From Basidiobolus meristosporus CBS 931.73 (taxonomy: Eukaryota > Basidiobolomycota > Basidiobolomycetes > Basidiobolales > Basidiobolaceae), in contig MCFE01000433.1 of the NCBI GenBank assembly GCA_002104905.1, positions 1 to 64,000 on the forward strand: a DNA stretch of 64,000 nt, read 5' to 3'. The position numbers were made by a program, and so were the translations under genes. The notes beneath the pieces were generated by a model. That model did no database searches. It worked only from the letters and a program-made list of their open reading frames with translations, and was not told the origin of the DNA. Shown piece after piece: positions 1 to 55,435 of the stretch (the first letter of the stretch is position 1; each line of letters opens with the position of its first letter).

Positions 1-3000
1 GCTGGTGCTTCTCAAAACGATTGAGTAGTGGTGGATCTTCCGAATATACTGCGTCTTTATCCATCACAACAATACATCGAAATCTCGGGTGTACGTAGCA
101 CATTGGATTGGAATATTCTCCCAAAGCTACCCTGGTGAAATATCTAAGGTCGTCTTTTTTGCCAATAGCTATATAGTTCTGATTCCATAGATCGTACAAG
201 CTTCCTGGAGACAGTGTAGTGGATGTTATATATGCATTTCAATGTAACAGACGGATGTAGGATAACTCACCGTACACTGCTTTTAGATTTGTTAGGACAA
301 CGGGCTGTCCCTGTTCAACGCACATCAAGACCTTATTCAGAATGCTGTACGCATAGTCACTTGTATTATCTTCAGGATATTGGCTACCCCACAACACTAC
401 TGCCTCCATGTCATAACTCTTAAGGTGATAATTCAAAATATCCACCACTGAATTTTTGTCGCCAATTAACATCAGATGTCGTGAATTGGAATCCTGGAGG
501 TTGGCATCGATGATTTCCAATATGTTGTGATCGCTGGTATCTCGCTTTTGGCCATTTGTATGACACATTGCCAATACATTTTCAAATTCATGATAAACTT
601 CTGAATTTCGACAAGGTGCGCCGCCAAAGTTTCGGAGCAACCCATTCTGCATTGCCTCTCGTGACAGCCCTTGCTTACCGAGCGTCTTTACCAATGAGTA
701 ATAGTCACGTAAGCCGTGAAAATTCTTGTTGCTCTGAGACTTTTGGTAGTGAATGAAGGCGTCGGTTAATCTTACAAAGAGCTCCTTGGGCGGTGGGTCG
801 GCATTCCTGTTTGCGGCTTCCTTCTGATAAATTTTGATGCCCACATCTGCCAATTCGATATGATTCATTGAGGGCCGCTGCACTAGCAACGCTCTGGACA
901 GTTTGCTAGGCAGAATTGATACAAATCAGCTATTACTTTGTCGTTGTCAAGACGTTGCATGGGTGAGTACCTGTTATCCAAACGCCAGTTGCTTATACCT
1001 ACTACAGCGATCTTTGGCTTGTTTCTGGGATAGGCAGGTTCAAGTAGGGAGTGTAGCACCTTCAGTGGATTAAAGGGACTAACCTCAGCCAATCCAACTG
1101 GCAATGGATTTCATTAATTCATGTAAACCTACCCTCAACATCAAAGCTTACCCTCGTCCAATAGCACGACTGATTTGATAGGATGTTGCTTCGAGCTCAT
1201 CTCTTGATACTTCGTTGCCTTTTGAAACACTTTTAGTAGACCCGCAGACGTGGACGTAGTGGAACCTTGATATGGTACTATGTACACCTAAAGATTCTCT
1301 GCCGGTTAGAAAAATACAAAGATTCATTGAACTTTTCATTCACTTACTTGAGGCAGTGTGCGAAATATGGGTCGTTAGAGTCAGCACCTCGCAGATTTTG
1401 ATTGATTAACTTCAAGGCTAAGGACTTGGAACTTCCAGGAGCCCCAACTACAAAGATTGGAATGTTGGTTAAAATGCATGCAATAGTAGCGAGCATATTT
1501 TCCAGCAGTGCTTCACTAGGTGCGACATCATCACCACATATCATTCGGTTGAAATAGTCGATGGCATCATGATGAAATATCTCCAGAATCCCCTGAGTAG
1601 TGATTGGATTCTTGAACTTGGCAAATATATTCCCAAGGTTTTCCCGATATTTCCTTCGATCTTCATGACGATACAACCTACACTGATAAGAGACAACTAG
1701 TGCAAGGACCATAGAGCGCTGCGGGATATCGTCTGCTTGCGGATACGAAGCCCTCTTGGTTTTTAGGGCTGCCCTACTTTCAAGACTCTGGCGAAAGAAT
1801 CTTGCAAGTTCGATGGCTCGTTTAATATCTCGTAAGCTGACACTATGCTCCCCATCGATACTACGTATGTGTTCCTGAGACATGCATAGCATTTCTGCAA
1901 ACATTTGGGATTCAGCAAAATTCGACATAGAATGCGTGACCATATGTTGAGTGTATAGGTTTTCATCCAAAGGACTCAATACGCCGTAATCCCATATATA
2001 GTCTAGCAACGCCTCTGGGACGGGATGGACTTGATAGACCAACTTGCTTTGTTCTTCATAAAAATACTCCTTTGATGCGTAAGCATCGGCTGCGTCTGTT
2101 GGGATCTTACGGAGTCGATACGGATTGCAAGCAGCAAAGAATCTTAGATTGTCACTTAGCGATTGCCCATACAGCGAGCGATCGGTAATAATAGACGTTA
2201 ATAGGCCCATATGATTACAAGTATTAATTTCATCGAAGAACACCCACAGGGGGCCTGTTCTCGCAAGGGAATTTGCATTCTCAACAAAAGCTTTGGATTT
2301 CCCCTTCACTAACACCTGCATGGAGATTGAGGATTTGTAATTTAGCCTCCATCATAGAGGCGAGAAAGCCGATTAAGCTGCTCTAAAGTACCTTAAGATA
2401 AGATATTAATGAACCTGTGTGCTATTCTGGAAAACAATACCTTGCCACACCCAGCCTCGCCCCGGATGATAATGGGTATATTTGCATGAATACGCAAGAG
2501 CATTAGGACCATTTTTAGCACATTGTCTGCACTCAAGACATATGGTCTTTCAGGTCTCCATTCCGATAGGTTTGTCCTAACAAGTGATTGTAGCAACGCC
2601 ATCAGATTTTCTTGACTCATCTCATTGTAGTCGGGGAGATGGAACCGCGATCTTCCAAAGTGCTGACTCTCCAGTAGATTAATTACGCTTCTAGGTACTA
2701 AATCCCTGTTCCTATAGAGTGCGCATATCGATCCAGGGCTCTGGCTTAAGAAACTAATGATCAAGTGATTGGAATCACGATCTCTGAGATTTGATCAGCT
2801 GAAGGCGGCGTATTTTTCGTACTTCGCAAGCATCTCGATGCGAATTCTCTAGCAACACCAACTAGTTCCATCAGGAGCGTGACACGAATATCTTTTCGGA
2901 CCACCATAAATGCCAGGTTCTCTATGCTAAAGAAGGGGCTCTCAGTCAGATGTTGCAACTGTTTGCCAAGCACCGATATGAACATGTCAATGAATCGGAA

Positions 3001-6000
3001 TGTTCCAGTGTCTGTGTTACTCGTGAGCAAGCAGTACTTGTTTATTAGCTGCCTGCAGAGGAATCTTCTAGCCTCATATTTTCCTGAAGATTCCGAGTAT
3101 CGATACGTGTTGTTTTCGTTGGCATTGAGGTACTTGCACACAAGCTGGGTATAACTGTTTCTATCGACATCAAAATTACTGATATCAAATGCAACTTGTA
3201 ACTGATTCAGATAGGTTGCGAATGGCAGCATATCTCCAAAATCTGAAGAAAATTCTATGATATCTCTCCTGAAGGCAAGATAAGCGTTTCCGACTCCGAG
3301 CGTATTACACGAGTGGTACGCATTCGAAAGAACAAATGATCTCTTCGAGTTTGATATGGCGATATTAAGTGCAGAGCCCGTTATGAGTTAGAGAGCATTC
3401 CGGAGGTGCTTGATAAGGCTGGGGTATGTCGAGTCCCCGCTGATCATATTGTATGTTTCCTATTTTCACCGCAAATCTGATTGATTCTGGTGGTTTTCCC
3501 TTGACCCGAGTGAGCAGAAGTAACACACGTAACGTTTCGGAAATCTGAGTAAATTCTTTTCATCGACTTGTCAGCTAAGCCGCTGGAACGGACAACCAAC
3601 GAGGCAAACTGATCCAGGATATGGTGATTCTCGTTTTCGGATTGGCAGCATATCAATGCAAGCATGTAATCGCACAGAGTCCGGTGTTCTTGAATCATCT
3701 TGACCAAATAGTATTGGGTCTCACTAGATAGGATATCGACACCTGCAACGCAGAACAGCTTTGAACTGTGCCCTGCTGTTGATGCAAAAAAGGCTCTCGT
3801 TAGGAAACATCGGATCTCTTCTTCTGTAGTGCTGGAGCGGCAAATCATTATTTGCCATGGCTGTGGATACTGTTTACAGTTCACAAACAGCGATATTACG
3901 ATGTTTGGTATTAGGTATCGGCTGGCGCAGGCAACTACGAACAACTTTCCCGGCTGAACAATATCCAGTGTAGACTGTGGCAGTTGCGGGAATGTTGTAT
4001 GGACGGTTTTCGGAAGGTCGTCAAGGACATCCCTCAAACGACTCCCAATATACGAAAGGATAATTGAGTAATTTTCAGCCACGAGGGGTGCATGATCGAA
4101 AGATGGCGATGGCAATACTGCTTTCGGGTGGTAGAATCGAAGTAGATCGTGGCATTTAGTCGGAATATCAGCATCGCCTGGGTAACAATTTGATTCTGGA
4201 TAGAAGTACTGGTAAAAGATCAGGAAATCGCGTGGATTGTAGAATGTCAGGTAATAGTTTTCTCGCTGCGCATCACCGATGATAAACAACAGATCTTGCA
4301 AATCCTCCTTGAGTTCCGTAGCCAGGGCCACCAACTCGGACTTTCTGACAGCTTTCCGGACGAAATTGATATACTTCAGGTGGCCCAGTCGGATCAGCTT
4401 GGTAGCAATTGGTATCATGCCCTGTATAGTATCCACGATCTGCACAAACTCGTGCATGATGTCCGCCATATGCTCCTCGTCTTTTTCAGCTCCCAGCGAT
4501 AAGGACTTCGCTTCTGACATGGCGGACCTGGCATACAGTCTTGCCCTTCCACAAAGATCTTGAAGCTCAGCAAGTGACGTCTGCTTAGATTCTCCGCGGT
4601 AATTCAGCAAAACATCCACCCTTTCTTGGAAGACAAAGTCGTACGTCCCACGCTTAACAGCATTGGCTATTTTATCCTTCGTAGCTTCTCCACGATTTGC
4701 GATATTGTTGTATAGATTTTGAAGGGCAACATTGTTAGCCGCGCAGAGACTAATTCTTGAATGTAGCACCGGATTGTCCCTGGCAATTTCTTGGAGCATA
4801 TTGAGAAGTGGGGCCTCCCTCCAGGTATGGATTGCTTGAAGAACCGGTTTTAGTGATCTTTGGACTTCGATCATGGAAAAGATTGTTTCCTCCTGGATCA
4901 CACGCGCATCATCATAATCATCTACCCCGTTGATTATATTCCGCAAGTCATTCTCGACTACAGCAGTCAGGAATTGAAGAAAATCCTTCCCGGATACCAT
5001 CTCTTGCAACAGTTTCCAAAACCGGCGATCGTAGGAATTGAGGAGTTGCTGAATTCTTCCGAGTGCTTGCTGGTAGCTTCCCAAGGTATGCTCTGGTGAC
5101 TTCAGGTTGGTCAATATATCCTCGGTTGCAACCGATGAGGTGTAGCATTCTGGAGCACCATAGATTGCTTTGATTTCTTGAACCAGCATTACACGAGAGA
5201 TCCAGAGGGGGCGATCAATGAAGGACTTTACGGCAGACAGCATGTCCTTGAAGTCGTCTCTGCTCTCTTCCCTCAGGAATCGCAACTCCTTCTCCGCATC
5301 CTTTACGGGCACTCGTTCCCATACTTGTTCGATTTCTTTCAGGGAGATTTTTTGCCAATCATCATAGAGCTTGGCATGCTGAGAATATGCTTGAATAGCG
5401 GCAGGAAAAAAGGTGGCTGCTATATCCGCAACCAGTAGCATATCTTTTTTTGAGGACATGGATTTTAGTATATTTGTAAAAGTCCCTGCTTCATAGTATT
5501 TGGTCGCTACGTCAGCACACTTCAAGATATGCTTGTAATCGTCCCAGAAACAAGCACTTGAAATAGATGATAGTTTAGAGGCATCTATCGACTTCTCCAT
5601 GTCTTTTAACTGGCACAGCACCTCGCCAGCATCCATAGCATTAGTCGAAACACACACCCCGAGAAATCTGTTTAAGGTGCGCATCCGAGTTCTTGCGAGC
5701 CTACATTCCCTATAAAAATTTGCGAGCTCCTCTGTTGAGAGAGTGCATACGGGGAGATGAAGGATTTCTTGAGCGGCTTTCATAATCGGGATGATGTCGT
5801 GTTGCGGCAGAGCTTGCAGTTGTTCTATAGCCATTACAGATACTTCCCCCTCGGAGATGAGCTCTGTGCCAGTATGTATGATCTGTGCAACCCGCAATAA
5901 ACGGTGATTACCTCGCAACGTTTCACTGGATTTGGATATGCTGAGCAGAGCACGCCAAAAGGCTCCTTCCCTCAGGACCTCAATAAGACTCTTCTCAATC

Positions 6001-8311
6001 TTAGAACTGTGTGAATCGATTGTAATAGGCAGGTCAACGAGTTGAAGAATATCAACTAGCATAGCCTCTGTCAAACTAAACAAGCAAGCAACCTGGTCAA
6101 TGTCCTGTTGTTAAATTTCGGCAAAATGACAAACCAAACCTGTTTGTGACTAGTGGTGTTCTCCTTTCATACAAGGGACATAGTAGAGTAATCACATCAA
6201 GTAGATGGTTTCTCGGAACCAGCGTTAGTTTACGGTGCAGAACTTGTTGGACAGCCAATGCAACGTCGGTTGGGACACTAATGCTCCCCATTGACTGCAC
6301 TGAGGCGAACACTATATCGTAGCTCGTTCGCTGTACGTATCCGTCGAATATCATCAGAACTTCGTGAGTAATCTCCAATCGATCACATAACAGCCAAATC
6401 TGTGCAAGAGTACTATACATACTCCCCACGACATTTGGGTGCTCGTCTGCCTGCCTCGAAGTGAAAGACTTCTCTATGTGATATTGGCATACACGGTTGT
6501 ACCAGTCCGCACACACAAGAGCCAATTCTTTCTGAAGCCCACTACAGCTGCTTCTGGTGACATATAGCAAGGCCACCTCGGGAAACAGCTTGAATATTGC
6601 TTCAGTCTTAGCAGCAGCGATTTTTGGTATGACTTGGAATAGGTGCTGATTCGCTTTGTAAATAGAGCTATGAAACAAAACTCGAGAGACCGTTTCTGAA
6701 CTGATATCTTGGTACGTAGCTGTGGTGATTAACTTCACGAAACGGACCTGCAAGAAACCCAAAATAGATCCTTCTAAGCCACTTGGTATATTTTCCGAGA
6801 ATAACAGGATCTGATCGAATGATGCCTTGCTCACGTGAACTTGAACCTGGAATAGATATCGTTCTTGGGCTGACTGGCAACAGGTATCCAAAACCAATTC
6901 TTCCCAGATTCGCCTTAGAATACAAGGATTGCTACAGAGCTTTGCTAGTGCCTAAAGGAGGTAATTAGTATACGGCGCACTTTTTTAGTGTATCACCAAC
7001 CTCTATCACATCGCCACCCGTAAGTGCGTGACCCTTTAGATACCGGTCTGCATATGCAATTAACTTGTTGAAGTAGTCTTCGTTGGCCTGGTTTTCCTTG
7101 CAGTACTCCAGGGTAGAAAGAAACGATATACCTGGATCGACATCATCAGCGATCGTAAAGAGAATCATCCAGTCCAATGCTCCAACAACTCTAGAGTTGT
7201 GATAGGCGAGAAATTGGCAAACAGTGGGCAGATGGGCAATCAGATAGCTTGGGAATGCCAACTTGTCCATAGTCGTCAGCGCACGAAGCAATTTTCCCGA
7301 ATCAAATTCGATATGCGGTTGGGAGTGAGCCCACTCCATATTCGGACAGATGACCAGGAGAAGGCCCAGAAGGAAATACAGGCCTTCCTCACAGACTTCT
7401 TCGACCCTGCTCACAACAAATTCCATCCCGTTCTTCTTGCCAAGGTTTTTTGCGCTGGAGTCGAATATCTGGTTACAATTAGATATGGCGACCGTGAGCG
7501 AGAGCTGGCCAGATGTGTACGACTCATAGATTCTCGCTATGTAAGGGAGTATATTCTTTGGACTGCGGAAATGAATCCTACTATTTCCATACCATATATC
7601 ATGGGGGTATGGATTTACGCCAAGTTTACGATTGTCTCGCTCTGAGCAACCCTCATAAATTGTATCCTTTCCTAAAATGAACTCTTTGAATCTGTTGCGC
7701 TCTTTGAATGCCACATACTTGTACTCGATAGTCTGCGAGAGATCAATCTCCACTGGGCTTGACTTCCAAAAGCAGCCATCTTGCTTTTGAAGTGGCACTA
7801 CGGGCCTTTTCCATTGACCGAGCTCCTCGATATTTCCTGTCACAAAGATCTTATACTCCTTGTACTCGCGATTCAAGCAAGGGGGCGTCAGCAGATTGAA
7901 GATAACTCTACAGGTGTGTCGGGGATTTTGGCCATCATGAGACTTTTCTGCAGCAGGCGCCCCTGCCAACTGAGCATTTTTGACATTGCTGCTAGATGAA
8001 AACCCGTTTCCAGGTGTATCCACCTCTTCCACAGTTTTGTATCTCTTATCTTCTGCATTCTGGCCTACCCCTACTCCACCCTTCAATACACCCTGATGTT
8101 GAGAAGTCCCGCCAATCTGGCATGGGGTCGACGAGTTGGGTACCAAATCGAACGCTTGTTCCTGATGCTCAATTGATTCATGCAATACACAAGTGGGGGA
8201 GTTTGCTGGTGGACTTTCACTCCTGTCTGTGTTGCTATTCACATCGTGCGGGTGAGAGTGTTTTTTTAGTTTCCAATCTTTGCGGACGGTCTGTTTTCTA
8301 GTGGGCTTCAT
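1..8311 (-). CDS. RNF213/mysterin-like giant AAA+ protein with N-terminal CBM20, 3' part outside window
   Basis: Homologue of the E3 ligase RNF213 (mysterin), a dynein-like AAA+ ATPase. The ATG at 8311 opens exon 1 (8311-6974). Residues about 130-245 are a CBM20 starch-binding domain (VTGNIEELGQWK; ends HDIWY). Other exons by splice signals: 6951-6140, 6075-2441, 2382-1348, 1287-1152, 1097-971, 905-271 and 204-<1. Exon 3 carries a P-loop-like GQGKT near its end. AAA3: Walker A GEAGCGK, completed to GEAGCGKSS by splicing 2440-2383; Walker B WVFFDEINT; sensor FFAACNPYRLR. AAA4: Walker A GAPGSSKS, Walker B LLDEVGLAE, sensor GISNWRLD, then GLRDYYSLVK and LLNRFEKH as in animal RNF213. The RING/E3 module would lie beyond position 1. 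Frame breaks near 3459, 3390, 2776, 2289 and 1364 suggest a decaying gene or sequence errors. Family identity is firm; functionality is not. Confidence 0.82.
1363..1366 (-). other. Frameshift in T-run after AAA4 Walker A
   Basis: The upstream frame reads ...SNDPYFAHCLK. The family-like continuation FRTLPQ, spliced to VYIVPYQGS, is one base out of phase. Loss of one T from a three-T run would explain it. The intron 1347-1288 then joins TLPQ to VYIVPYQG cleanly. Confidence 0.55.
2286..2289 (-). other. Frameshift in T-run inside AAA3
   Basis: Between Walker A and Walker B the protein reads ...HAGVSEGEIQSF and then must shift one base to VENANSLARTGPLW. The shift falls on a four-base T run (minus strand). 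Both sides fit the RNF213 AAA3 pattern, so this is a one-base gain and not a splice junction. Confidence 0.6.
2770..2815 (-). other. Frame change before AAA3: one-base loss or short intron
   Basis: The frame ending ...PSADQISEIVIPIT must pass to the frame ...DSNHLIISFLSQ. A one-base loss near 2776 would do this. So would a 41-bp intron with donor GTACGA after ...RCLR and acceptor CTCAGAG. Sequence alone does not decide. Confidence 0.45.
3388..3390 (-). other. In-frame TAA in RNF213-like gene
   Basis: A TAA codon separates ...IKHLRNAL from ...SALNIAISNSKRS in one continuous frame. The surrounding 60 bases contain no GT that could start an intron, so splicing cannot remove it. It is a nonsense mutation or a sequence error. 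Confidence 0.5.
3456..3463 (-). other. Frame break 1 in RNF213-like gene
   Basis: The long exon frame ends just after the P-loop-like GQGKT segment (RINQICGENRKHTI then stop). An open frame with RNF213-like spacing (MISGDSTYPSLIKHLRNAL) continues one base out of phase. No GT-AG pair reconciles them. A single-base loss in the GG run near 3459-3460 would explain it. Confidence 0.5.
6952..6973 (-). other. Putative 22-nt intron in the RNF213-like gene
   Basis: On the minus strand this stretch begins GTATAC, contains a TACTAAT branch-point-like site and ends TTTAG. Removing it joins ...LKKCA in phase 0 to ALAKLCSNPC..., keeping one long frame. Reading through gives a stop three codons later (CAVY then stop). 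Every other intron I placed here is 54 bp or longer, apart from one uncertain 41-bp alternative near 2776, so this is an extreme outlier. Confidence 0.55.
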
Positions 8312-8386
8312 ATATTATTGATATGGCTCGCAGGATGCTGAAGCTTGTAGATTCGCTAAATCTAGCGTAAGAGCAGGTAGAAGAGC

Positions 8387-8394
8387 CTTATATA
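8387..8394 (-). promoter_or_regulatory. TATA box of the RNF213-like gene
   Basis: TATATAAG on the minus strand, about 80 bases upstream of the ATG at 8311. It supports that ATG as the true start. The spacing suits a fungal TATA promoter with a short leader. Confidence 0.5.
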
Positions 8395-10069
8395 GGCCAC
8401 GGCATCTCGTATGGAAACAGCAGTCAGATGGAAAGCTGGTTGGATTCTGATTGGCCGTTAGACGGAATACTTCGTTCGTACTACGTCAGTATCCAGGTAG
8501 AGCATGGCATACATGGGATAACTTGATTAGGCCACGCACCGGTTTTGGTGAGTCAAATTCAGATACAACCTGAGATTTGATATATTGGAAACCAGGATGT
8601 AGGTCCTTAAATGGAGACGTTTAAGGTAATCTCCAAGTTTAAAGAACGAAGGTATGAAACGGCGCGGTTCCATTCCGCAGATTACGATTCAGAATTGCGC
8701 TATAGTACTGTCGTTGGTATGGCATGGTGACCGTTGACTGTTTCATCTCTCATTTGGCACAGTTTAATGTTCATTGTGATCATGGAAGTCATTTATCAGA
8801 TCAACCTCCTACTTGATATTATGAGTGGTGCAACACAGCATCTCATAAACGTCAGTATTCCTTGCGTCCAAATTCAGGTAGATTCTTGTTTCTGCACTTC
8901 ATTTCATGTGATAGAGTGGATCTTCCAGTGAGCATGTATCACATGATTGCTCAGATCTGGCTAACCATTTGGGTTTCTATGTTCAGAGAGCACACACTCA
9001 AGCCTTGGACTTGTTGTACACTAATGTAGCATTCCATAGACGTTATAGTTGAGGTTGCGTCCATACCTCTACTGATACTAAAGCCTGACCTTCCGTCATT
9101 CAGTAATTACTGGTTCCATGATTTCCAAATGTCAACTTCATTGCTGGATGTCAAAATCATGTCATGTTTACCTTTGGGCAGATGGTATCGTATCCGTGAA
9201 CTCACTCTAGTGTGAAGAACTAGGCATTTTTAGGATCGCCCAAGTCAGCCCCAACCGAAACTCCTCGTTGTATCATTTCCCTATTTTGCATAGACATGTG
9301 GTAGTTCAATCCCTGGCTGCGACTTTAGCCTTGGAATATTTGTGTGGTTTCTGCGGAGATTCCTACCATGCTCCTATGTTGGCATGATAGTATTCCACCT
9401 CGCCTACTGCCAGAAATACTGGATTTGCCCGGAACTTATGAGAAAGCCAGTGGCCAGGATATTGCGTCTGGAATGGGTAAGATAACAGTTCTCATATAGC
9501 CTTCTAATCGCTTTTCTAATTTACATCACCGCCAGGTCCCAATTCCATTTTTTTCACTGTCAATCAACGAACGCCAAATTTCTCCTCCATAATGCCTGGA
9601 CCATTCCACTCGCACTCGGCCAGCGCCAGAAACGGATCGTGCCATAAATCTCAGGACCTACACCTGCCGCAGGCGCTAAATAATGCCCGATTTACACTGT
9701 TTGCCTAAACTTCGGTGGCGATTTCAATTTGGTGATAAACCCTCTACTCAACCATGGCGCACCCATTCATCTCAATGCCGTATCTCCATCCCCGTTTAAT
9801 CGGCGCTCATCTAGCTAGAGGGTATGATTTGTGTGGCTTTCGAAATGGCCGAAGCTTATCCAATGATGGAGTGGCGTTGAATGTGATTGGAGTGAAATCT
9901 CATTACTTGGTAATAAATGCAGATGATCGAAAACATAATTCCAGCCTAGACCGCCTCCAGATCTTAATAAAGCTATAATTTCAGGTCAATAAAAAGGAGA
10001 CTCGTACCATATCACAGAAAATACGAAGTCTGTTAGCGTTTAGTTGAGTTCACCCATTAGCTCAATAAC
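8395..10069. other. Intergenic region between divergent genes
   Basis: The RNF213-like gene leaves to the left and the PNPOx-like gene to the right. A 74-codon ATG frame at 9754-9978 lacks splice support and recognisable motifs. I see nothing else I can name. It probably holds both promoters. Confidence 0.5.
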
Positions 10070-10950
10070 ATGGTTACCTTCTACAATGAAATCAGCAACA
10101 GCCATCAAAACTGGATAAAGAAACAAAAGATCTATTTCGTCGCCAGTGCTCCATTAGCTTCTGATGGCCACGTGAATGTTTCCCCGAAGGTATAGTGAAA
10201 ACTGAATCGAACTGGACGTTCGTAAACGGCCTTCTGCTTCGTGTGCCATGAGCTAACCGTGGTTCTTGTTAGGGATACGATAGTTTCCGTGTAATTACCC
10301 CGAATAAGGTCTGCTACTTGGAACTTTCAGGTATAGTGACTCATTCTAGCTTTCCTTTTCTTTTTCCCTCGCCTCCGATGCCTGCGTTTTTACTTCGGTT
10401 TTTTGCGCAGACTATCTCACTCGTTAAATGTTTTGTAGGTTCGGGTATCGAGACACAAAGTCACGTCAATGAGAACCAGAGATTGACATTTATGTTTACG
10501 GCCTTTGAGGGTGCACCAAGAGTATTGCGACTCTGGTCGTTGGCCAAGGTGCACCTCATTGGCACACCTGAATTCGAAGCCCTCCTCAAAGCGCACTTTG
10601 CAGATAGTGAACTTGCTGGAAAAAAAGGACTTCGGTCCATTGTGGTTGCTGAAGTATTCAAAGTTGGAACCAGCTGCGGTTTTGGAGTGCCTTTCTTTGA
10701 TTACAAAGAGCCCCGAAACACACTGATCGATTATTGGGGGAAGCGTTCAAATGAAGAGATCAGAAAATACTGGGTGGAGCATAACTCTACGAGCATTGAT
10801 GGATTGCCTGGTATCCAGCTTGACGGTAACTCGTCCGGTAAAAGGCGTCGTCATATCAAATTAGCAAAGGACTACGGTAGCCTTATGGCCGCCTTCAGTG
10901 CTGGTGTGGCAGCGACTTTGATTGCTGTTAAATATTTTGGCAGCCGCTGA
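10070..10950 (+). CDS. Pyridoxamine 5'-phosphate oxidase-like FMN-binding split-barrel protein
   Basis: Three exons: 10070-10189, 10273-10330 and 10439-10950, giving 229 residues. Introns of 83 and 108 bp have GTATAG/GTATAG donors and TTAG/GTAG acceptors, and the phases fit exactly. The N-terminus (MVTFYNEIS, IYFVASAPLASDGHVNVSPK) and the run GSGIETQSHVNENQRLTFMF, TAFEGAPRVLRL, TSCGFGVPFF and SIDGLPG are the signature of the putative PNPOx family of fungal FMN-barrel proteins. The substrate is unknown; relatives bind FMN or related cofactors. The last 25 residues form one hydrophobic segment (LMAAFSAGVAATLIAVKYF), which could be a tail anchor. The gene is complete with no frame damage. Confidence 0.85.
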
Positions 10951-11893
10951 GCATGGTCAAGATAGTGAGCACTAGCTGGCATACATATGAATTATTAAAG
11001 TGTTTCGAGCAATAACTAGCTATATCGCTTTCTAGGCTGATCATTTTCTACCGGTGCCAGTCTGGTTATCAATGGAATAAGCGTACCTTCACTGTCAAAT
11101 CAATGGCATCTCAGTATCGTGCAAATGGTGTATGAATCAACACTCTGGCTCAGCAATTTTGCAGTCCCTAATGCACGTGGGATCATCAGGTATGCACCAT
11201 TTGCTCTTGACGGACGAGGTGGGCAGCCATTTGGCCTTTTTCAAGATAATAGTACAGCGACGTTGACATCTATGCTATCATGATATTTGGAAGTCTCTAC
11301 CATCGACGCCTTGATGCACATTGGATTGGGAACGGAGTTACGAACAGCTTTTCCGCGGATTCGGTGGGAATGGGAGCAAAGGTGCCTTCAGAGATATCCC
11401 CGGTGGCTTGGTGTATACCGTGAACCGAAAGAGGCTTTCAATGAAGATACATCCTGCCTATAGCAATATAGAAAATCACGTTTGCGTCTTTGTACTGCAC
11501 TGTTAGTGGTAGAGAATTATGCGAAAAGTATGCAGTGGTCTGCTGAAATCTTAGTGCTTCATTCTTCACAGCCAAGTTTCAACCAAAGTGCTTGAAATTT
11601 TGTGGCAATCAGAGAGAGCGTCTTTAAGAGATCCGAAACAAACTATGCTGGTTTCCAAATCTGGGATTGAAGGCCACCCTCTAAAGCACATGTATATTGC
11701 ATAAAGCAGCTTCAATCTCTCGATCCAACCATCATCCTCCCAGTGGATCTGCATTTGCTTATATCAGTGTTGACTTGATTGGTGCTAGAAGTGCACTACA
11801 ACAAAATACACGGACACTGTTTCTTCTTCTCTGTCGAACTTGCCTTCGACTTTATGAAGTAACAAGCTCATTAATTGATACGCTGCCGTTAAC
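10951..11893. other. Intergenic region before the Rab gene
   Basis: No gene recognised. Short frames at 11321-11506 and 11697-11897 have no motifs or splice support. The region should contain the PNPOx-like 3' UTR and the Rab promoter. Confidence 0.45.
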
Positions 11894-12873
<980 letters not shown>

Positions 12874-14587
12874 CGCGCCATCCACAACCCCATCTGTTGA
12901 GTGATTAGAGTGATTGCCAGGGCTGTATTCTGTATTGTACGAATCAACGATGCCTCGCCTGTATTCGCCGGAGGCTTCGCTTGAATGCTACTATACTTCA
13001 TTGTGATTAAACCTTTGTTTGGCACCCCCAGTACGTGCAGCCATCTCCGGCCTCCCTTGATGTCCAGGCCATTTCAGTCATATCTTCTACCATTTTTCAT
13101 ATGACAAGTTAGGAACGCATTATCCTGCAAACCCTTCCTCTCTAGTAGTCATTTCCGACCATGTGTTTGTGACTTGAGGGCGACACAAATTCGAGAGTCC
13201 GGCTGGCTGCGAGTGAAAAGTCTAATCGTGCGGAAGGGTGAAGAGATCAATTGGATACTCATTTCTAAATACAGAACAAGTCAACCCGAAGATCCTGATA
13301 GCACCATCGCTTTGCCGAACAATCTACCCACCCCATTGGAGGCTCACCCGGTAGAATAGATGTTACTCAAGCAACGATGGGATCTCCTGTGCAAGAGAAG
13401 CATGTCCATCGACCAACCGCGACTGACAGTTGCACCACAGTCACAAACAAGGCCTCTTTGTGGCATCTACAGGATCAGCAGGATGTATAGATGCAACCCC
13501 ACCAAATTGCATTCCTAAACCGAATTAATGGTAGCTTCAAGCTGGCTGCACTGATGAGACAGAGGTGTGTCATGGATCCCCCGTTCTGGAGGTATAACCG
13601 TAGCAGGTTACGATTAGCGATGCACACGTACTTTCGAGTCTCACATTGGAGTGCAGCACCGCGCATAGCAGGTTCGCTCTCCTAAGACCGGTTGATTAAT
13701 TGATGTAACAAACATGATGCCTCAGCCTCAACAGATCCAAAACCTGAGGAATCCATTGGATACACGATTGTATCCGGGGATCCCAGGAACGCTCACCGTT
13801 ATCTTCAGCCTGCCATAAGCATGAGCAACGATTGGCATAGGGTAGATTGCAGTGAGCCTTCACATGGACGAGAGCCAGGTTGCAGACAATGACAGAGTCC
13901 AGATACTCGTGCATGACCAACGTAAGAGCCGAAACACCGCTGCATGTGCGGTGCAGTGAAGCCTCGCAAGCAATGCATCCCCATACTAATAGTCACATTG
14001 CTCGATCAGATGGGAATCTTCTTGGTTGTGTCATGTGGATCTGAAGACTGCGCGCTAATCTCGATGCATGCAGAACATAGCCATTCATTTGTATCATGAT
14101 ATATTAAGTGCCATGTTACGCACCCAATGTATTCTACCAAAGCCCCTTATCTAATCTGACAAATGCTCATGAGGCCATCAGTATTTACGTAAGCCAGCTG
14201 CATTCCCTACTCAGTCCTGGCCGTGAATGCAACAGTTGGAATATCGGCTCCAACAGCGATCCCCAGTTTGGGCCATCTCTTGCCTAGATCGATTTCTCTC
14301 TGGCTACTCGCCAAGAATCACCATTATCCGATCTGCAGCAGCTATGAAAAGGAAAATCACTGCATCTTACTAAAATGGGCGGTCGGCGACGATCAAGGTA
14401 GAGGCTCAGTGGAGGACTCTGGCCATGGTCGCTCAGGATGGGTGAATATTAAAGCAACTGGCGATGTTTATTCAGCAAAGTGGCCGTGTATTGGCCAGGA
14501 CCTCCGATGAGCATCCAATGATTAGACCACCCAAACGGATACGATATTAGGTGGAAAACAGTGATTAATTCTCGTAGAAAGAGGCTT
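12874..14587. other. Intergenic region
   Basis: No gene recognised. Overlapping short frames on both strands (for example 13174-13359 and 13475-13685) have no motif and no matching splice sites. Base composition resembles the neighbouring genes and not the repeat block. Confidence 0.45.
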
Positions 14588-28547: not shown

Positions 28548-30049
28548 TTAGTCTAAAGTTACATCCCGTTCCAATGTGGGGTTTAGGGTGCTGGGGGCCA
28601 CTTCGGGAGTGGGTGTGGGAGGGGGTGAGGCTGAGGTGGAGGTGGAGGTGGAGGGAAAGACATCGGTCCTACCCGAAGCTACGGGTGGCTCGGTAATATC
28701 CCGTTTACACAGCGGGCACGTTCTATTTAGCTTCAGCCACTCATCAACACAATCTATGTGGAAATGGTGGTGACAGTACAGCTGCCTCAATTTCTGGCCA
28801 TCTTCGTACTCAGATAGACAAATGCAACATATCGCATCCTCCTCCCGGATCCTGATCAGCGTCCCGGTGGTGTCCTCCATACACTCCGACTCTCTCCGGA
28901 CGGGAGGGACCCCCGATTTTCGGCAGAGCTTCTTTTTGACTCGGTCGAGGAAACGTTGCGGTGGGTTCGCGTGGCTGGGCCAGGGCTGATCAGACACCAG
29001 TTGGTGGGTGGCGGGAACGTTCTGTCCCATGTTGATAACATGCGGATGTTCCGGGCTGGCCTGTGGGGTTCGTCGGTAGGTCAGAACAGGGATTTTGGAA
29101 ATCACATCCTCCGTAGCACCAGCTCCGGTCACCTCACCGATGCCCAAGGTGCGCATGATCATCAGCACGCAAGGAAGACAAAAGATCACCGCCCCGCAGA
29201 GGAAAACCGGGATTGTGATCACGAAATACCCCAGGATCACCAGGGCCATGGACAAGCCAAACAGGCCGGGGGAGGTTTTCTGGCAGGTCGTCGTGGTGAA
29301 CAATAAATAGTTTCCCACCAGGAAGATGAACGTTCCTACAAGATCCAGCAGGGATTTCCCTCTGCAAAAGAAAGCTGGTCAGTATTCTGGCTTGTTGTGT
29401 GGGACGCCGCTAGCTCCCAAGGAGGCGTGTGTTTACCTGTCAATCCAGTTCAGCAGTATGCTCGACTGGTCATTGGAGCTGTGTCTCTCGGGATGGATGT
29501 GGTAGGCAGCCAACACTGGAGTGGCCAGGAAGATTCTCACGACGTAACAGATAAGATACAGTCGCAGTGGCTTGTCACATTCCTCATGCCGGGTCACTAG
29601 CAGAATCGCTATGATGGTCGCTGACTAATGGAAAAACTTAGCTTCTCTCACAAAAGGGGATTTGCCGCTTGCTTTACCTGGACGACGAAAGACATGAGCG
29701 ATAGGAGTAGCAGCAGTCTGGAGGTACGGGAGGCATTCCGATAGTACTCTAGTAGGTAACTTAGCCAATTCCGCCTAGCCAGGGTCACGGTACGGATGGA
29801 AGTGGTCCTGATTGAGCCAGAACGTGCGGTAGAGAGGTATATGGGTTGAGGGGTATGGGTATTTTCATGCTGGATATTCATCGAGATTGAGGAACTGGAG
29901 GGGTTGGAGCTTCGCGTGGAAAGTGCAGCGTTCAAGTGCCCTTCGGTTGTCGGCTCATCAGGTGTATTGCTAGAAACGGAAAGGGCTTCTATGGCCGTCT
30001 GGGGCGGGCCCTTCTCCGTACACGTGTGGACTGTGCCCGGCGAACTCAT
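28548..30049 (-). CDS. Multi-span membrane RING-H2 E3 ubiquitin ligase
   Basis: Three exons: 30049-29678, 29624-29437 and 29361-28548, giving 457 residues. Donors GTAAAG and GTAAAC, acceptors TTAG and GCAG, with agreeing phases. The N-terminus is Ser/Thr-rich. It is followed by [11 protein letters not shown], two spans ([20 protein letters not shown]...), [20 protein letters not shown], a third span, and [20 protein letters not shown] and [14 protein letters not shown] spans. After EDAI comes a C3H2C3 [15 protein letters not shown], a His-rich [12 protein letters not shown], then CPLCKRD. This order matches the plant and fungal At1g12760-type membrane RING ligases. It should transfer ubiquitin to membrane substrates; which membrane is unknown. 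The ATG at 30049 is the first in frame. Confidence 0.88.
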
Positions 30050-54191: not shown

Positions 54192-55076
54192 TTACTCTTC
54201 ATAATGCTCCAGACACATTTCTCTCAGTGGATGTCTTCTTGTATGAACATACTGTGTATTGATAAGTATCTTAACTATTTTACCTATTCTGCTGTTTTCT
54301 CCTATATATGACTTTCCTCTGTATTTACCTGCCAATATGCTGAATCTCTTCAGATATCCAAATGCGTGCTCTACCCTTACTCTGAAATGATTAAATATCT
54401 CATTGTAGAGCTTCTGCTTCCTGCTAAGCACACCATTCCTTGGCTTCCTATAAGCTGTAATACATCCTAATCTCTGACAATCCTCTCCTATATAGGCCAA
54501 GTCTGCCATACATTTCTCCCCTCTACTGAATTCAGGATGATTCTCTACCCAGAGTGCTTTGTCATGCCTACTTCCAGCAAATGGCCCACTAAACCAGATG
54601 ATGTTACCCTCAATGTCAGACAGTGCTTGAAACTTCACACAGTGTGCCTTGTACTTGCCAGAATAAAAGTGCCTCTGCCCTCTAGAAGGTCTGTTAATCC
54701 TCACTGGGAAGGTATCCAAAATACTCCTGATATGGAACCTGTTGCTGAACACTCTGGGATATGGAAGTCTAATGGAGCTTCTGAACCTAGTATTCCAAGC
54801 TTGCTCTAAGTCATTCATACCCTCTGCAAGGTGGTTCTCCATTGCTGTCAGCTGGGAATGAAAGCTTCTAGGACTTTTGTTGCCATGGATGGTGGGATGA
54901 AACCTTGTAGGGCAATAGTTCTTGTAATAGCAGAGAAGCTTAACAAGGGATCTCCTTGAGTAGATTGGGGTTGATGGTCCACAGTACTTGGAATAGATCT
55001 CCTCCAGTGTGTCAAAAGGAAATCCAGTGGTAGTGATGGGATTGATGAGAAAAGACCATTCAGATGAGTAAGTCAT
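54192..55076 (-). CDS. PIF/Harbinger DDE transposase (copy 2)
   Basis: 294 residues, single open frame, ATG at 55076. It cuts and rejoins the element ends. The DDE triad is visible: D121 in ILDTFPVRINRP (DGTxxxI-type block), D192 in MADLAYIGE, and E236 in RVRVEHAFGYLK. GKYKAHCVKFQALSDIEGN and AGSRHDKALW are also family blocks. It is shorter than many Harbinger transposases, and I see no clear N-terminal helix-turn-helix, which may sit in ORF2's product. Divergent partner ATG lies 359 bp away. Copies 1 and 3 hold broken versions. Confidence 0.85.
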   Translation of the reverse strand: MTYSSEWSFLINPITTTGFPFDTLEEIYSKYCGPSTPIYSRRSLVKLLCYYKNYCPTRFHPTIHGNKSPRSFHSQLTAMENHLAEGMNDLEQAWNTRFRSSIRLPYPRVFSNRFHIRSILDTFPVRINRPSRGQRHFYSGKYKAHCVKFQALSDIEGNIIWFSGPFAGSRHDKALWVENHPEFSRGEKCMADLAYIGEDCQRLGCITAYRKPRNGVLSRKQKLYNEIFNHFRVRVEHAFGYLKRFSILAGKYRGKSYIGENSRIGKIVKILINTQYVHTRRHPLREMCLEHYEE

Positions 55077-55435
55077 ATTAAAATTGATGGATGATTGTAT
55101 GGAGGCGGTTTGAATCGATTCGGCGCAATCTGCGTTATTTATCTGATTTTTAACACATTATGGTTAAATCTCCATCAATTGCCATGTATCCCATCATTAT
55201 GTTGCAAAAATCATCCGCAAACAATGCCTTGGTACTTTTATTGATGCTTTATTCATAGGTCTATAATCAAATAGGAAATCTGCGATTGATGTGATCTGAT
55301 CCGTGTCAACGCGATCCGAGATGCATCATGCCTAATATATGGAAAATTCAACAATCACTTTAGTTTTCATATATATTTCATATAAGACCAGGTTGATGCC
55401 AATATACTGCTGTATAAGTATCCAAATCCGTTGCT
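55077..55435. promoter_or_regulatory. Bidirectional promoter region of Harbinger copy 2
   Basis: 359 bp between the two divergent ATGs. Contains AT-rich TATA-like stretches (CATATATATTTC near 55371, TAATATATGG near 55334). Conserved with point changes in copy 3. Confidence 0.45.

Follow-up and report, generated by a model that had tools for sequence, protein, structure and literature searches.

The window considered here is the whole stretch of 64,000 nucleotides from Basidiobolus meristosporus CBS 931.73 (contig MCFE01000433.1, positions 1 to 64,000), and its subject is the gene at its beginning. It occupies the minus strand between an ATG at 8311 and position 1 and is the 5' half of an RNF213-family gene: a CBM20 domain, a stalk, the motifs of AAA2 to AAA4, and the block GLRDYYSLVK. 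The host contig (C684) has 75,870 bases in an assembly of 89.0 Mb and 1,311 contigs; its start cuts the gene, so the ubiquitin ligase (E3) half lies outside the window. The parts of the locus are as follows.

1 to 8311, minus strand: RNF213-family gene, 5' half, running off the start of the contig (motifs, PDB search, profile alignment)
6967 to 8311, minus strand: first exon, ATG at 8311, with the N-terminus, CBM20 and start of the stalk (frame reading, Pfam)
7694 to 7861, minus strand: CBM20 domain (Pfam PF00686, alignment)
3444 to 6110, minus strand: exon of 888 residues, stalk and start of AAA2, with GQGKT at about 3506-3492 (frame reading)
2441 to 2461, minus strand: AAA3 Walker A, GEAGCGK, with intron 2440-2383 immediately after (motif, profile alignment)
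2220 to 2240, minus strand: AAA3 Walker B, FFDEINT (motif, PDB alignment)
1422 to 1445, minus strand: AAA4 Walker A, GAPGSSKS (motif, PDB alignment)
1083 to 1164, minus strand: AAA4 Walker B, LLDEVGLAE, interrupted by intron 1151-1098 (motif, profile alignment)
686 to 715, minus strand: GLRDYYSLVK, conserved block after AAA4, reading GLRDYYSLI in mouse RNF213 (motif, mouse alignment)
205 to 270, minus strand: last intron seen, 66 nucleotides, GT-AG (profile alignment)
Introns, minus strand: 7000-6940 (acceptor uncertain), 6139-6076, 2440-2383, 1347-1288, 1151-1098, 970-906 and 270-205 (profile alignment)
1360 to 3448, minus strand: lesion stretch, with frame breaks near 3448, 2780, 2286 and 1360 and an in-frame stop at 3390 (frameshift-aware alignment)

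The family assignment rests on several matches. A PDB search with the exon encoding AAA3 and AAA4 (E<=1) returned ten matches, nine of them RNF213 (E 2e-29 to 6e-28, all below 1e-27); the tenth was the unrelated ArnA, at E 0.79. CBM20 scores 31.0 bits against PF00686 (cut-off 23.3), and 34.5 bits in a search of the genome. A profile built from 12 fungal homologues aligned 2,425 codons of window DNA, from 7843 to the contig end, and the intron-aware alignment placed seven introns of 54-66 nucleotides each. Both Walker A and Walker B are kept in AAA3 and in AAA4 (motifs and PDB alignment), and AAA2 has a P-loop motif. The initial annotation, which had proposed an RNF213-family gene with CBM20 in a fungal genome, was thus correct as to family, motifs and motif order, and in predicting best matches within the family. 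All its motifs are present, but the contig start cuts the gene and its frame, as assembled, is not open.

That frame can be followed in detail by aligning window DNA to the profile of 12 homologues (alignment A1) with a script that permits introns and frame changes. Four frame breaks and one stop were placed, all within 2.1 kb, and none in 7843-3448 or in 1360-1; the count varies with the script's penalties, and by-eye reading suggests that 3475-3260 may hide further frame changes. The copy as assembled is unable to make the full protein. The public model K493DRAFT_410326 (585 residues) spans only 5459-3447, stopping at the first frame break; it places introns inside the open frame of the window and is 84% identical to that frame.

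A second RNF213 copy in the same assembly provides a comparison. It lies on contig C77 (18,197 bases) at 3984-13643 (L009, L010), and a near-identical piece of it is carried by contig C284 (12,181 bases; L032 1-2900); C77 and C284 may be two alleles. Relative to the window, the C77 copy has 20 deletions of at least 4 nucleotides in about 3.9 kb, the aligned bases being about 98-99% identical. Microhomology at the deletion ends averages 1.6, against 0.67 under random placement (none of 2,000 simulations reached 1.6). Repeats have been inserted within this copy, and it has no counterpart of window 1318 to about 20, which holds AAA4 past Walker A and the GLRDYY block. It is decaying mainly through short deletions. 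Its frame is unbroken at two of the places where that of the window breaks, and in 3475-3260 the two copies differ by another two single-base lengths. Past the edge of the window the C77 copy goes on, matching homologue residues 2783-4668 collinearly at the cost of nine frame breaks, and it holds an RZ finger (PF20173, 40.5-41.4 bits; cut-off 27) that reads CKCGY and has the equivalent of the human cysteine C4516. The expectation of an E3 module after AAA4 is therefore borne out on the broken sister copy, but not on the contig of the window. A search of the assembly's contigs found no other E3 half.

Thirty-two perfect TTAGGG copies form a telomere at the end of C77 (18005-18197, equal to L010 8005-8197), which makes C77 a chromosome end and the decayed copy subtelomeric, with its reading direction pointing to the telomere. 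Since the window gene likewise points to the end of its contig, it may lie near a chromosome end too. Between the C77 gene copy and the telomere stands a reverse transcriptase frame (PF00078, L010 5374-6648); long element-like frames upstream of that copy (L009 1-3336) gave no Pfam match in the one piece scanned.

The most serious alternative on the state of the window gene is that it is intact and working, its frame breaks and stop being local assembly errors near a contig end. Because the strain was sequenced with PacBio (excerpts of PMC7466969), errors of this kind could have arisen. On either side of the lesion stretch the frame is clean, over 4.4 kb before it and 1.36 kb after it, and the Walker motifs are undamaged. 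Across 1,300 codons in four segments, the window and C77 differ at 49, of which 28 are replacement and 21 silent (replacement expected 77.5%; p 0.0016; ratio about 0.39). The excess of silent changes means that at least one copy was constrained after the split, which argues against the window copy having decayed for long. On the other hand, five lesions fall in 2.1 kb while the remaining 5.8 kb received none, and the clean 1.36 kb is the part nearest the contig end, where coverage was assumed to be worst. C77 and C284, from the same assembly, largely agree: one aligned piece of 3609 bases has two gaps and another of 2812 has none, though a third of 512 has three gap openings. The E3 half of the window copy was not found elsewhere in the assembly. 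An intact gene falls somewhat short of an even chance, and real decay is slightly favored over local error. The locus is either what remains of a damaged gene or a gene that was badly assembled, and its interest rests in the branch to which it belongs.

That branch is large. A protein search with the AAA3/4 exon found 796 proteins at E<=0.001, and the homologue counts given here refer to the best 120 of these. By name, nearly all come from arbuscular-mycorrhizal fungi, together with Geosiphon and one Jimgerdemannia. Fifty of the 120 have at least 4,000 residues and 69 have at least 3,500; a precomputed RZ finger is present in 56 and a precomputed CBM20 in nine (hand count). The finger is found in 42 of the 50 longest proteins. 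A CBM20 block is visible in all 12 long homologues chosen for alignment, and Pfam CBM20 at E<=1 in eight of ten chosen homologues. In the CBM20 of the window gene, the LGxW, [YF]W and YKY blocks shared with the 12 aligned mycorrhizal proteins are preserved; the last block reads YKY or YRY in those proteins. At least eight proteins come from Glomus cerebriforme and at least six from Rhizophagus clarus (hand count; these may not be one genome each). Fungal RNF213 proteins are not rare: the RNF213-like gene of the initial annotation is real, but it is no isolated oddity, having many relatives in public databases.

The mycorrhizal giants share the order of parts of the Basidiobolus gene and are named hypothetical, RZ-type domain-containing or e3 ubiquitin-protein ligase in databases. 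They include many long open frames, whereas the Basidiobolus assembly yielded two related copies, one cut (the window) and one decayed (C77). Across AAA3/4 the window is 33% identical to human RNF213 as against 47-51% to four fungal homologues (49-51% to the three compared from Entrophospora, Geosiphon and Glomus), and in a tree it forms a long branch of its own, with its position unsure. No paper on fungal RNF213 was found in the open full-text literature, with most subscription papers and preprints outside that coverage, and the branch is apparently undescribed.

Several side observations concern these proteins and the domains they share. P0004, P0052 and P0079 bear precomputed Pfam protein kinase domains (P0004 also an RZ finger), and P0002 repeats its AAA3/4 region near its end; these are fusions or gene-model artefacts. 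In the Basidiobolus genome itself, the CBM20 loci C443:88835-89074 and C561:61455-61715 outscore the window CBM20, and the AAA3/4 exon search gave no match at either. Farther along the window, a DDE_Tnp_4 transposase frame lies on the minus strand at 54192-55157 (83.7 bits).

Comparison with animal RNF213 (human structures 8S24 and 9JWG, mouse 6TAX and 7OIK) shows a plan shared by the fungal family: CBM20, a long stalk, the AAA2 P-loop, Walker A and B in AAA3 and AAA4, the GLRDYYSL block and, in the E3 half, the RZ finger with its C4516-equivalent cysteine; in a long homologue these parts are collinear with the animal protein. P0039, from Rhizophagus, aligns with mouse RNF213 over three collinear segments, with an overall E of 3e-140; from the AAA-core match to the E3 match it has 814 residues against 989 in mouse. 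Unlike animal RNF213, the window copy is broken. ZNFX1 is a helicase that is not known to have a dynein-like AAA core or CBM20. It has the RZ finger in common with RNF213, and the finger was defined from homology between the two (excerpts of PMC11549300).

Two differences set the fungal proteins apart from the animal ones. The first is the RING finger, from which the enzyme takes its name and which the initial annotation had expected downstream of AAA4. In mouse it lies between the two final E3-back helices (excerpts of PMC7311170). Three patterns of rising looseness found a RING signature in none of the 120 homologues, including none of the 50 with at least 4,000 residues, the only ones for which the absence is strongly informative. 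The same patterns do detect a RING-H2 protein that the window encodes at 28551-29378. As a RING domain, a Pfam search of ten homologues gave only zf-RING_4 in two, at E 0.16, and the ten homologues checked for CxxC pairs have two to four each, one of them within the RZ finger. On C77, decay is too advanced to judge whether a RING was present.

The second difference is in the RZ finger. Profile alignment sets human CPNGHPCSVGECG against fungal CkCGykyligeCG, which places Cys for Asn at +2 and, mostly, Tyr or Phe for His. Where animals have CxxxH, the fungal finger thus has CxC followed mostly by Tyr or Phe. CxCG occurs in 52 of the 56 homologues with a precomputed finger; of the four exceptions, P0004, P0006 and P0090 have a first half that is missing or went undetected, and P0121 has a diverged one. 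Among the 28 homologues matched by a stricter pattern, the His4509 position is Tyr or Phe in 22 and His in none, while 27 keep the C4516-equivalent cysteine. CxxGH was found in none of the 120.

These differences can be read against work on the animal enzyme. In human RNF213 the zinc ligands are C4505, H4509, C4525 and C4528, and neither H4509A nor C4516S ubiquitylates two bacteria or the Toxoplasma vacuole; deletion of the RING is without effect, and coat formation requires ATP hydrolysis (all from excerpts of PMC11549300). Independence from the RING is also reported in PMC7311170, again in excerpt. The fungal proteins have retained most of the parts needed in human RNF213, without the dispensable RING; the exception is the His ligand, and we infer that CxC holds zinc in its place.

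The window holds a fungal RNF213-family gene cut to its 5' half, and we consider it probable that this family is one of giant cytosolic ubiquitin ligases which transfer ubiquitin through an RZ cysteine, without a RING. By extension from animal RNF213, CBM20 and the stalk would contact a surface, possibly glycan-bearing; the dynein-like AAA ring, with both Walker motifs in AAA3 and AAA4, would power assembly on that surface through ATP hydrolysis; and the RZ finger would hand on ubiquitin via the C4516-equivalent cysteine. The zinc site of the finger would have been rebuilt in the fungal branch, CxC replacing CxxxH.

Several points weigh against this proposal. Because the window lacks the E3 half, catalysis can only be read from C77 and from other fungi. 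Eight of the 50 long homologues have no precomputed RZ finger, although one of those eight does show the CxCG pattern. The human H4509A mutant is dead (excerpts of PMC11549300), and the fungal finger has no His at that position. Ligase function in fungal RNF213 proteins is predicted from animal RNF213, ubiquitin transfer and the coats on microbes being known from the animal protein (excerpts of PMC11549300).

A different function for the family is also conceivable. Fungal RNF213 might serve metabolism rather than defense, acting on lipid droplets or, via CBM20, on glycogen. CBM20 is a starch-binding family, and RNF213 in animals affects lipid droplets. Against this, many diverging copies per species, as counted above for Glomus cerebriforme and Rhizophagus clarus, are commoner in recognition families, and an expansion of RNF213, parallel to that in mycorrhizal fungi, is reported in symbiotic bivalves (excerpts of PMC9993606). 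A metabolic role seems to us fairly unlikely.

The remaining alternatives concern what the gene is and where it came from. The strain was isolated from gecko dung (excerpts of PMC7466969) and the listed matches come from other fungi, so a contig or gene derived from an animal host or another fungus deserves mention; introns of 54-66 nucleotides, the lower AAA3/4 identity to human than to fungal proteins, the long separate branch, and a related second copy carried by different contigs of this assembly make such contamination very improbable. Least credible of all is another dynein-like AAA giant, dynein or midasin: the RNF213 core is itself dynein-like (excerpts of PMC7311170), but neither protein is among the PDB matches to the AAA3/4 exon at E<=1, CBM20 and the RZ finger go with RNF213, and the collinear mouse alignment and RZ profile alignment also stand against it.

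RNF213, a giant ubiquitin enzyme with a part in animal immunity, has been studied as an animal protein, in connection with moyamoya disease and the ubiquitylation of lipopolysaccharide, and mycorrhizal fungi carry endobacteria. As a tentative and rather speculative picture, RNF213 could be an ancient cell-autonomous surveillance enzyme of animals and early-diverging fungi, its RING-less fungal form, with the rebuilt zinc site, policing bacteria or viruses within hyphae, multiplied as a recognition family in mycorrhizal fungi and being lost in Basidiobolus. Were this so, the RING would be either an animal-side addition or a fungal loss, and fungi would supply a natural example of a minimal RZ ligase.

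A large fungal branch that shares the animal plan but has no visible RING and an altered zinc site offers a natural experiment on which parts do the work. It is consistent with animal mutants that need the RZ finger and not the RING (excerpts of PMC11549300 and PMC7311170), and it predicts that CxC can substitute for a His without which the human enzyme is dead. The abundance of copies in mycorrhizal fungi makes a role in handling intracellular bacteria or viruses directly testable.
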